In this document: in pieces, positions 30,836-38,218 of the stretch
How positions within the stretch are numbered: position 1 is the first letter of the stretch
How the letters are laid out: each line of letters starts with the position of its first letter
Assembly (NCBI GenBank): GCA_012517255.1
Contig: JAAYVH010000285.1
Span: forward strand, 1 to 45,455
Direction of reading: 5' to 3'
DNA: 45,455 bases
From: Chthonomonadales bacterium
Lineage (GTDB): Bacteria; Armatimonadota; Chthonomonadetes; Chthonomonadales; CAJBBX01
The notes under the pieces: generated by a model
What the model saw: only the letters and a program-made list of their open reading frames with translations
Databases searched by the model: none
What the model was told of the DNA's origin: nothing
Translations under genes and position numbers: made by a program

Positions 30836-31543
30836 ATGATCTCTAGGAGACAGGCATTGGAGCTATACAGCGCCATTCGGGAACTTCCTGCGGACGAGAG
30901 GCCGCGTGAGAAGCTGGTTCGCTATGGACCTGAGCGGCTATCAGCTCAGGAGCTGTTGGCCATCGTGCTGCGCACCGGCACCCGCAACGTCAGTGCGCTC
31001 TTGCTCGCCGATCGGTTGTTGCACTGTCACGCGGGACTGAGGGGCCTCGCGGGCGCGAGCCTCGCAGACCTCCAGCGCACGCCGGGGGTCGGCGCCGTCA
31101 AGGCCATCCAGATTGCCGCATGCTTCGAACTGGGCAAGAGGCTCATGGCCTTGCCGGAGGAGCACCGAAGGGCCATCACGACCCCTGAAGAGGCTGCCGC
31201 GCTGCTCAGTCCGGAGATGCGTCACCTCGATGTGGAGGTCTTTCGAGCGCTGCTCCTCGACACGAAGTCCCGCCTCATCCGTATAGAGACCATAACCAAG
31301 GGTACGCTGGACTCCAGTCTCGTGCATCCGCGTGAGGTGTTCAAGTGCGCGATGGCGGTATCGGCTGCCTCGTTGGTTGTCTGCCACAATCACCCAACAG
31401 GCGACCCGAGGCCCAGCCCCGATGACCTGAAGGTGACCCGGAGGTTGCGCGATGCCGGCGAGGTCGTGGGCATCGAGCTGGTCGACCATATCATCATTGG
31501 GGGGAGCAAATGGGTGAGTCTGAAGCGCGAAGGACTGATCTAG
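30836..31543 (+). CDS. radC: RadC-family JAB/MPN-domain protein
   Basis: RadC proteins are widespread; the old DNA-repair link in Escherichia coli was withdrawn, and the function is not settled. The 235-residue protein has an N-terminal helix-hairpin-helix domain (TPGVGAVKAIQI) and a JAMM metalloprotease-like domain with H184, H186 and D197 in HNHPTGDPRPSPDD. The ATG at 30836 has no upstream ribosome binding site. A TTG at 30857, 7 bases after an AGGAG inside the reading frame, is a strong alternative start. The 3' end overlaps the translin-like gene by 34 bases. Confidence 0.92.
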   Translation: MISRRQALELYSAIRELPADERPREKLVRYGPERLSAQELLAIVLRTGTRNVSALLLADRLLHCHAGLRGLAGASLADLQRTPGVGAVKAIQIAACFELGKRLMALPEEHRRAITTPEEAAALLSPEMRHLDVEVFRALLLDTKSRLIRIETITKGTLDSSLVHPREVFKCAMAVSAASLVVCHNHPTGDPRPSPDDLKVTRRLRDAGEVVGIELVDHIIIGGSKWVSLKREGLI

Positions 31544-32187
31544 ACAGAACCGGACTGGAGCCGATAGCTGCGCGTATCCGGGCGGGTCTCGAGGCAAAGA
31601 ACAGCGCGCGTGAACTCGCCCTGCGCCAGTGTCGCGAGATCATTCAGGCGTCGGCGCGCGCCATTCGTTCAGTGCATCGCGGCGACTTCTCCGAGGCGGA
31701 CCGATGGATCGCCAGGGCGCGCGAGATTGTCGCCCAGTTGCGTCTGATGCTCCCGGACTTCCCGGACATCTACTATGCCGGGTATGTAAACGACGCGCAG
31801 AAGGAGTATGTCGAGGCCGAAGCGGTGCGGGCTCTGGTTCTGGGGCGCACGGTGCCCGATCCCGAGCAGCTCGGCGTGGAGCCCGCTGCCTATCTGAACG
31901 GTCTGGCCGAAGCGGGCAGCGAATGTCGGCGCTACGTGCTGGATCGTCTGCGGGACGGCGACATTGCAGTCGGCGAGCGGCTGATGGAGGCGATGGACGA
32001 CATCTACTTCGAGCTGATGACGTTCGACTTTCCGGATGCCATCACGGGGGGGCTCCGCCGCACGGTGGATGCCTTCCGGGCCGTGCTGGAACGCACGCGA
32101 GGCGATGTCACTCTGACGCATCAGCAGAAGGCGCTGTATGATGCTCTTGCGCAGGCCGGGGCAGGCGGCGCCTCTGACGATGGTTGA
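31510..32187 (+). CDS. translin-family (TRAX-like) protein
   Basis: Translin and TRAX are helical, ring-forming nucleic-acid-binding proteins; some act as RNases. The 225-residue protein is all-helical, with conserved-looking stretches AQKEYVEAEAVRALVLG, ECRRYVLDRLRDGDIAVGERLMEAMDDIYFELM, and VLERTRGDVTLTHQQKALYDAL, which resemble archaeal translin-like proteins. The paired acids in the EYVEAEA and MDDIYFEL helices could be the metal sites seen in TRAX. GGGGGGAG precedes the ATG, which lies inside radC. It overlaps the next glycosyltransferase gene by 8 bases. Family assignment is from memory of motifs. Confidence 0.68.
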   Translation: MGESEARRTDLDRTGLEPIAARIRAGLEAKNSARELALRQCREIIQASARAIRSVHRGDFSEADRWIARAREIVAQLRLMLPDFPDIYYAGYVNDAQKEYVEAEAVRALVLGRTVPDPEQLGVEPAAYLNGLAEAGSECRRYVLDRLRDGDIAVGERLMEAMDDIYFELMTFDFPDAITGGLRRTVDAFRAVLERTRGDVTLTHQQKALYDALAQAGAGGASDDG

Positions 32188-35247: not shown

Positions 35248-36264
35248 CTAGTCGCTCTCGGCGATGAATGCGTTGCGGTAGTGACGGATCTCGGGTACCC
35301 GTGAGCTGCGTCGCACGACCTCAACGACGTCGAAGCGGCACGGCCGGTCCTGGATGGCCATCTCGGCAAGGTAGGCCAGAGCAGCCTCAACGATGCGCCC
35401 GCATTGGGCCCGGGTCAGGCGCTCTGCCGGCGACCCGATGTCCCGCCCCCCGCTTGCCTTCACTTCCGTGAACACGATCGTGCCGCTATCGTCGCTGATG
35501 ATGTCTATCTCGGCTCGACCCGACCGGTAGTGTGTCGCCAGAATGCGATGGCCGAGCCGCTCGAGATATGATCGTGCCCACGCTTCGCCTGTCTCGCCGA
35601 CTGCCCGCGACAGGGCGCTGGATGAGCCAGGATCGAACAGGCTAGAGCTGCATTCCCGAACGGGCGCAAACGAGCGTCGGTGGATGGGGCAGGGGCCGTG
35701 GGCACGCAGGGCGCGGAGATGATCGGGCGTAGGATAGCCCTTGTTCCGACCGAACCCGTAGATCGGATACGCCGCGTCCAGCCGGGCCATCATGCGGTCG
35801 CGGGTGACCTTCGCCACGATGGACGCTGCGGCGACGGACATGCAGAGCGCGTCGCCTCGCACGATGGCCTCGTTGCTTACCGGAAGGAGCGGCACAGGCA
35901 GCCCGTCAACGAGCACATGCTCAGGCGTCGGGACGCAGCGCTCCACAGCGCGCCGCATGGCCAGGTGCGTCGCCCGCAGGATGTTGTGCTGATCAATCTC
36001 AGCCGGCGACGCCTCGCCGACGCCTATCGCCACGGCGTTCGCCATGATGGCATCGCAAGCTCGGTTGCGCGCGGCTTCCGTGAGAAGCTTGGAATCGCGT
36101 ACCTCGGGTAGTTCGGCGTTGCGCGAGAGCACCACGCAGGCGGCCACCACCGGCCCGGCAATCGGCCCCCGTCCGACCTCGTCCATGCCGCCAATGAGGG
36201 AGAAGCCGCGCAGACGCGCGGCTTCTTCGAAGCGCCAGGATGGCCGGTTCTTCTCGGGGCTCAC
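35248..36264 (-). CDS. ribonuclease HII fused to YraN (UPF0102) endonuclease-like domain
   Basis: A single open frame of 338 residues joins two proteins normally encoded by neighbouring genes. Residues about 20-205 are RNase HII, which removes RNA from RNA-DNA hybrids: GMDEVGRGPIAGP (D28, E29), DSKLL, VLVDGLP (D120), SIVAKVTRDRMM (D156), and the usual end HRRSFAPVRE. After a roughly 20-residue serine-rich linker, residues about 222-338 are YraN, a PD-(D/E)xK nuclease-like domain: GETGEAWARSYLERLGHRIL, RAEIDII (E252, D254), FTEVK (E267, K269), IRHYRNAF. No ATG, GTG or TTG occurs in the linker. The GTG start at 36264 follows the lepB stop by 26 bases; the longer open frame overlaps lepB and is rejected. 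Confidence 0.88.
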   Translation of the reverse strand: MSPEKNRPSWRFEEAARLRGFSLIGGMDEVGRGPIAGPVVAACVVLSRNAELPEVRDSKLLTEAARNRACDAIMANAVAIGVGEASPAEIDQHNILRATHLAMRRAVERCVPTPEHVLVDGLPVPLLPVSNEAIVRGDALCMSVAAASIVAKVTRDRMMARLDAAYPIYGFGRNKGYPTPDHLRALRAHGPCPIHRRSFAPVRECSSSLFDPGSSSALSRAVGETGEAWARSYLERLGHRILATHYRSGRAEIDIISDDSGTIVFTEVKASGGRDIGSPAERLTRAQCGRIVEAALAYLAEMAIQDRPCRFDVVEVVRRSSRVPEIRHYRNAFIAESD

Positions 36265-36290: not shown

Positions 36291-36995
36291 TCAGAACACC
36301 GCCGTAGCCTTGCCGATGATGCGTTCCCTCGGGACCGTGCCCCAGAATCGGCTGTCGTTGCTGTTGTTCCTGTTGTCGCCCATTACGAAGTACTGACCGC
36401 GTCCCAGAGTGAGGGGACCCTGCGTCCCATAGGCGGCCTGTAACCGCTCTTCCATAGGCTCCATCGTATAGGGTTCGTGGACAGCCTTGCCGTTGATGAA
36501 GAGGCGCACGTCGCCGGCGTCGTCCCGCTTGATCTCCACGGTGTCTCCCGGTATGGCGACACATCGCTTGATCAATACGTTCTCGTTCTGGTGGAACTCA
36601 GCGTCGGCTTTCTTCTCCGCGCGGAAGACGATGATGTCACCCCTCGAGGGGTCGCCCAGACGATAGATGAGCTTGTTGACGAATATGTGATCGTGGCAGG
36701 TGTCCGAATACGTCACGCCGGTTCTCGAGACGCCACGGTCATGTCCGCACAGCGTCGGCTCCATGGACTCCGTGGGGATGTAGAAGGCCTGCAGAAAGAA
36801 GGGTCGGATGATCAGGAACACGAGGACGCCTGCCACGATGAGCGACTCGGCCAGTTCGGCAACAGCACGCGCCAGTCCATGGCGAATGGGCACGAGAGCC
36901 GCTCGCACCACGGTCAGCACCGCCGCCACGATAACGATGGTGGTGGTGCTCAGGTTGGCCAGGTACTCAGTAACGCCGACTTCTTGCGGTTGCAT
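36291..36995 (-). CDS. lepB: signal peptidase I
   Basis: LepB cleaves signal peptides from secreted proteins at the outer face of the membrane. The 234-residue protein has two N-terminal hydrophobic segments (about 17-36 and 50-70), the catalytic serine in IPTESMEPT (S77) and lysine in LIKRCVAIPGD (K143), and the GDNRNNSNDSRFWGTV box. Length is normal. It lies between rplS and the rnhB-yraN fusion in the order common to many Firmicutes-like operons. An AGAAGGA lies upstream of the ATG. Confidence 0.96.
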   Translation of the reverse strand: MQPQEVGVTEYLANLSTTTIVIVAAVLTVVRAALVPIRHGLARAVAELAESLIVAGVLVFLIIRPFFLQAFYIPTESMEPTLCGHDRGVSRTGVTYSDTCHDHIFVNKLIYRLGDPSRGDIIVFRAEKKADAEFHQNENVLIKRCVAIPGDTVEIKRDDAGDVRLFINGKAVHEPYTMEPMEERLQAAYGTQGPLTLGRGQYFVMGDNRNNSNDSRFWGTVPRERIIGKATAVF

Positions 36996-37477: not shown

Positions 37478-38218
37478 TCATGAAGCAGCGGCAGCGGCCT
37501 CCGCCTCTGCCAGCAGCCGCATGTCTTCTGTTGACGGCCGGTACCGCTCCCACAAGTCCGGCCGGCGCTCGCGTGTTCTGAGGAGCTGCTGGCCGCGGCG
37601 CCATCGCGCGATGTCTGCATGGTTCCCGTTGAGAAGCACCTCTGGTACCGTCCAACCGCGGAACGATCGGGGTCGTGTGTACTGCGGGTAGTCGAGAAGG
37701 CCGTCCGAGAACGATTCCTGCTCGGCAGAGACGGCATTGCCCAGAGCCCCGGGCAAGAGCCGTACGATCGCATCCAGCATGACCATGGCGGGTAGCTCGC
37801 CGCCCGATACGACGTAGTCGCCGATAGAGTAGAGATGGGTGACGAGGTGTTCTTTGACCCGTTCATCCACCCCCTCGTACCGACCGCACACGAATACCAG
37901 GTGCTCCTCGGCAGATAGCTCACGGGCGATCGGCTGCGAGAAGACCTCGCCCTGAGGATCGGTCAAGATGACCCGATCCGGGCGATGGTCTGCGGCAATG
38001 GCATCGAGCGCGCGAGCGATGGGCTCGGGCTTCATCACCATGCCGCCGCCGCCGCCGCACGGCGTATCGTCGGTGGTTCGGTGGCTGTCCTCCGTGTAGT
38101 CGCGCAGATCAACAACGCGCACGTCCGCGATGCCTGACGAGATCGCGCGACCCACGACGCTGTGCATCAGTGCGCCGCGGACCATCTCTGGCAGGATCGT
38201 AATGACGTCAATGCGCAT
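37478..38218 (-). CDS. trmD: tRNA (guanine-N1)-methyltransferase TrmD
   Basis: TrmD makes m1G37 in tRNAs and prevents frameshifting. It is a SPOUT-fold enzyme with a trefoil knot. Seen here: [77 protein letters not shown] and the C-terminal [17 protein letters not shown]. Length is 246 residues, as usual, with a short Ala-rich tail. It follows rimM by 8 bases. Confidence 0.97.

Follow-up and report, generated by a model that had tools for sequence, protein, structure and literature searches.

The genes for ribonuclease HII (rnhB) and YraN have long been known to lie next to each other, and a locus on contig JAAYVH010000285.1 of a Chthonomonadales bacterium, where both appear to be read as one protein, raises the question of whether this joining is real and whether it reflects shared work or shared transcription only. 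RNase HII starts ribonucleotide excision repair, and YraN is a widespread protein on whose role the first reports are recent. A natural fusion that recurs offers a test of these two meanings of the adjacency: joint action, if true, would tie bacterial ribonucleotide removal to recombination; for now, the fusion stands as a domain architecture with good support, found in bacteria that have been little studied. We refer to the whole analysed stretch (45,455 nucleotides) as the window, and its features are collected in Table 1.

Table 1. Coordinates of the fused gene, its parts and its neighbours in the window
Feature	Position	Strand	Remarks
rnhB-yraN fusion gene	35248..36264	-	GTG start; only PF01351 and only PF02021 match in the genome
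RNase HII domain (PF01351), residues 26-201	35662..36189	-	D28, E29, D120, D138
Linker, ~20 residues (RECSSSLFDPGSSSALSRAV)	35599..35658	-	no in-frame ATG/GTG/TTG; pLDDT 64 at residues 211-220
YraN/UPF0102 domain (PF02021), PD-(D/E)XK fold	35317..35589	-	E227, E252, D254, E267, K269
lepB, signal peptidase I, directly upstream of the fusion	36291..36995	-	PF10502, 5.5e-43
rplS, ribosomal protein L19	37053..37415	-	PF01245, 1.8e-47
trmD	37478..38218	-	order trmD-rplS-lepB-rnhB-yraN
comM/yifB helicase gene, running off the contig end	44106..45455	+	~9 kb from the fusion; reported YraN partner elsewhere

On the minus strand, one frame runs from the GTG at 36264 through 338 codons to the stop at 35248 (the plus strand of the same interval is interrupted by stops). 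The earlier note, which gave no strand, had proposed that this single 338-residue frame passes from RNase HII into YraN, which the profile searches bore out: Pfam recovered both domains complete within it, RNase_HII at 1.7e-36 (126.5 bits against a curated cut-off of 25.8) and UPF0102/YraN at 1.3e-19 (70.7 bits against 23.6, with positions 1-80 of the 80-position profile covered). In NCBIfam the RNase HII and YraN halves matched separate models, and no model of the joined form was among the matches listed. The 20 residues that follow HRRSFAPV contain, as had been claimed, neither a stop nor an ATG, GTG or TTG (two CTG codons are all that lie in frame), while the description of this linker as serine-rich holds for the window species and not for the other fusions. 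Within the genome (4.77 Mb, 327 contigs) there is one PF02021 and one PF01351 match, both in the fusion gene; since RNase HI is encoded elsewhere, the fusion is the sole RNase HII but not the sole RNase H.

Of the RNase HII residues named earlier, D28, E29 and D120 were retained, and the fourth carboxylate is judged to be D138 (GD motif) in place of D156, D120 and D138 being counted among the catalytic carboxylates of the RNase H2 site. Aligned with Thermotoga RNase H2 (3o3g), D120 and D138 fall on active-site positions, and D156 is the conserved RD of VTRDR. D28, E29, D120 and D138 are invariant in 17/17 fusions and in all 42 alignment rows covering them, and D156 is likewise invariant in the 17 fusions. 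The YraN half carries the PD-(D/E)XK core (E, E-x-D, E-x-K) as E227, E252, D254, E267 and K269, and the residues to which the earlier note had pointed (E252, D254 and E267-x-K269) agree with the alignment: the first three do not vary among the fusions long enough to include them, and position 269 is K in every fusion reaching it but one, which has R. Between close species, dN/dS ranged from 0.075 to 0.10 for RNase HII and from 0.075 to 0.13 for YraN, and stayed at or below 0.16 for the linker (on 18-25 codons only). Both putative active sites, as read from these alignments, are intact and under purifying selection.

The AlphaFold prediction of the full protein (87 sequences) reached a mean pLDDT of 93.2 and a pTM of 0.69, with pLDDT 64 at residues 211-220; the model is one of two well-folded domains on a low-confidence linker, without fixed relative placement. 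As alignment rows that hold one domain only carry no inter-domain signal, the prediction leaves room for a domain interface. Searched with Foldseek, the full model ranked E. coli RNase HII (7uwe) first and also found the UPF0102 protein 3fov. Modelled alone, the YraN half (pLDDT 90.9, pTM 0.86) matched 3fov with a Z of 17.2 over 101 residues and the archaeal Holliday junction resolvase Hjc (1gef) with a Z of 9.5.

These likenesses place the fusion close to familiar proteins. As in bacterial RNase HII (RnhB; E. coli 7uwe, Thermotoga maritima 3o3g), the full domain and all active-site carboxylates are present, the identity to the E. coli fold match is 47%, and the operon place after rplS-lepB is the same; ordinary RNase HII, however, ends after HRRSFxPV, where the fusion continues into the C-terminal YraN domain. 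Likewise, the full PD-(D/E)XK domain and the motif residues of YraN (UPF0102/COG0792; 3fov) are kept, whereas the fused YraN has no start of its own and is tethered behind RNase HII. The fold and the E-D-ExK core are shared with Hjc at only 14% identity, and the other catalytic and dimer residues of Hjc are reported to be missing in UPF0102 (PMC10140301). In archaeal RNase HII-PCNA (3p83) and in the E. coli complex (7uwe, titled as a transcription-coupled ribonucleotide excision repair complex) a partner also brings RNase HII to DNA, but there the partners are separate proteins, while in the fusion the partner is a joined nuclease-fold domain.

That the window belongs to Armatimonadota is borne out by locus L118 from a genome of the same phylum, which over 3612 bases is 100% identical to a contig of a named Capsulimonas MAG. 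The fusion was present without a stop in all 12 genomes analysed from the window's family (the window and 11 others, 8 genera, separate assemblies), that is, in the close relatives whose lack of it the earlier note had linked to assembly error; in a genome of the same genus (G001) the fusion gene is broken by contig ends (C31/C338). With a draft of 327 contigs one might suspect that faulty assembly or sequencing had erased a stop or moved the frame, yet the same single frame recurs in the separately assembled family genomes and in other lineages, so that this explanation is refuted by the relatives and keeps a vanishingly small probability. The fusion is real and inherited, and it is fixed in one Armatimonadota family. 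In the two other families of the same order rnhB and yraN are two genes, abutting or overlapping. Across 291 Armatimonadota genomes two more were fused (G032 and G219), each in another family whose other genera are unfused, and the best 80 matches in the named genome collection supplied three further true fusions, two in Marinimicrobiota MAGs and one in a Latescibacterota MAG. Many of the remaining matches were neighbouring rnhB and yraN genes with a stop between them, in line with the claim that the two are neighbours in many genomes; apparent full-length matches from Geomonas, Lachnospiraceae, Desulfobacterales and others were rejected as adjacent genes separated by at least one stop. Within the library of papers searched, none on a joined RNase HII-YraN protein was found, and to that extent the earlier remark that the fusion was not known to be described stands (protein databases may already list the architecture).

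When the two domains were combined for a single tree, the fusions of the family formed one group (support 78), and the AU test rejected holding all fusions together (p = 0.008), which implies more than one fusion event; a single shared origin spread by transfer was rejected on the same test. The separate RNase HII and YraN gene trees were too poorly resolved for counting origins, and the splitting of an old fusion in many lineages remains, formally, an alternative to repeated fusion. In the gene tree, the RNase HII of an Akkermansiaceae MAG (L048) grouped near Armatimonadota (support 82), perhaps owing to a mis-binned contig or to transfer.

The gene order trmD-rplS-lepB-rnhB-yraN is common to the window and its relatives. 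In unfused members of this order yraN probably starts between -56 and +20 nt around the rnhB stop, so that the loss of the stop or a small frame change suffices for fusion, and genes that abut or overlap in this way can become joined by chance. For the other adjacent gene pairs of this operon that were tested, fusions numbered 0/41, 0/56 and 0/54 against 17/71 for rnhB-yraN, a control that is weak evidence for selection, because the loci had been sampled for their resemblance to the fusion and lepB encodes a membrane protein. Linkers differ in length and sequence between lineages: ATG, GTG or TTG codons are absent from those of the window and of L002, L004, L007, L008, L009, L011 and L044, and present in those of L003, L006, L010, L012, L014, L037 and L055. 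The linker of the independent fusion in G032 (L009, 2083-2196) is repeat-like (SSFEFRVPSSELSVSSSEFRVPSQPSRNSEPGTRNPR) and resembles translated intergenic repeat DNA. In many Lachnospiraceae (L071, L072, L085, L101, L106, L112 and others) rnhB and yraN lie ~2.2 kb apart with near-constant spacing, on either side of a stretch of fixed length.

Bioinformatic work has grouped YraN with the Hjc-like PD-(D/E)XK nucleases (PMC1189080, PMC1913061), its coupling with YifB (another name for ComM) emerged from a study of coevolution (PMC6822775), and in a 2024 preprint it is reported to be a helicase-associated nuclease that takes part, together with ComM, in natural transformation (doi 10.1101/2024.02.06.579203, cited in PMC12455585). 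For one purified UPF0102 protein, strong binding to single- and double-stranded DNA was reported and no nuclease activity on any substrate tried, and the five UPF0102 genes of a metagenome were all flanked by RNase HII (PMC10140301). In our data, YraN (PF02021) and the ComM C-terminal domain (PF13335) picked out one identical set of genomes, 8 of the 14 well-known controls (B. subtilis and L. lactis keep RNase HII and have no YraN), and ComM is retained by all fused genomes that are at least 95% complete. A phyletic link between the two within Armatimonadota gave no signal, as both are near universal (present in 151/156 and 152/156 genomes) and their absences do not coincide. Among the related loci, many of them with short flanks, comM adjoins yraN in one only (L126).

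We consider it probable, with moderate confidence, that two largely independent enzymes were merged by the loss of a stop codon in a tightly packed gene pair. The N-terminal half would act as an ordinary RNase HII, which nicks DNA at RNA-DNA junctions and 5' of ribonucleotides embedded in a DNA strand, and the C-terminal half as an ordinary YraN, a PD-(D/E)XK nuclease or DNA binder that assists the helicase ComM in handling recombination intermediates. The stop codon of rnhB would have been lost from a pair of genes that touched and were probably coupled in translation, and we propose that the cell tolerates the join since each domain can fold by itself and the linker between them is loose. 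The main consequence would be equal amounts of the two enzymes, perhaps with a shared residence on DNA, and no new catalytic step. The reading draws on the sole domain copies, the 12/12 occurrence in the family, the abutting genes of relatives, the conserved sites and the low dN/dS, together with the AlphaFold and fold matches, the low-confidence linker, its variability between lineages and the YraN-ComM links. Against it, the multiple origins and the contrast with the other operon pairs could mean selection for the joined enzyme; the UPF0102 protein that bound DNA without cutting, from genes beside RNase HII (PMC10140301), and the non-coinciding absences of YraN and ComM within the phylum likewise fit it less well.

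Functional tethering, in which the two enzymes would work one after the other on a single structure (for example, a nick made by RNase HII at a ribonucleotide or an RNA primer, after which YraN would trim or cut the resulting flap, D-loop or junction), is a reading that we hold to be rather unlikely, even though the fusion is recurrent, the adjacency widespread (and found for all five metagenomic UPF0102 genes, PMC10140301) and the linker conserved between close species. The model has no fixed domain placement, an old shared operon explains the adjacency, and the documented partner of YraN is ComM (PMC6822775, and reportedly the 2024 preprint); moreover, some 2 kb separate rnhB from yraN in several Lachnospiraceae, and RNase HII occurs with no YraN in B. 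subtilis and L. lactis. In the earlier interpretation of YraN and RNase HII, the two-domain fusion and the adjacency were upheld; joint action on RNA-DNA junctions, which was deduced from the fusion, may occur, and is set against a pTM of 0.69 and genes that abut or overlap in relatives. That selection has produced a bifunctional repair enzyme, whose RNase HII would open DNA at ribonucleotides or RNA-DNA junctions and whose tethered YraN would process the flap or D-loop, thereby linking ribonucleotide excision with ComM-driven recombination, seems to us unlikely.

The DNA binding without nuclease activity of the purified UPF0102 protein (PMC10140301) would also suit a YraN half that serves as a non-cutting module raising the affinity of RNase HII for DNA. 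A pure binder would not need the PD-(D/E)XK residues, and the presence of E252, D254 and E267 in all fusions reaching them, with K269 replaced once (by R), counts against such a module, as does the title of the 2024 preprint, which names YraN a nuclease; we deem it improbable. Nor do we expect, save as a very slim chance, that the cell still makes two proteins through internal initiation or proteolysis in a loose linker: the low model confidence of the linker and the ATG, GTG or TTG codons in seven of the linkers listed above would allow it, but that of the window and seven others have no standard start codon.

A radC-like gene (UPF0758; 30836-31543, plus strand) shares the window with comM and yraN, and beside it (31510-32187, plus strand) a protein of 225 residues, without a Pfam match, appears translin-like by eye.
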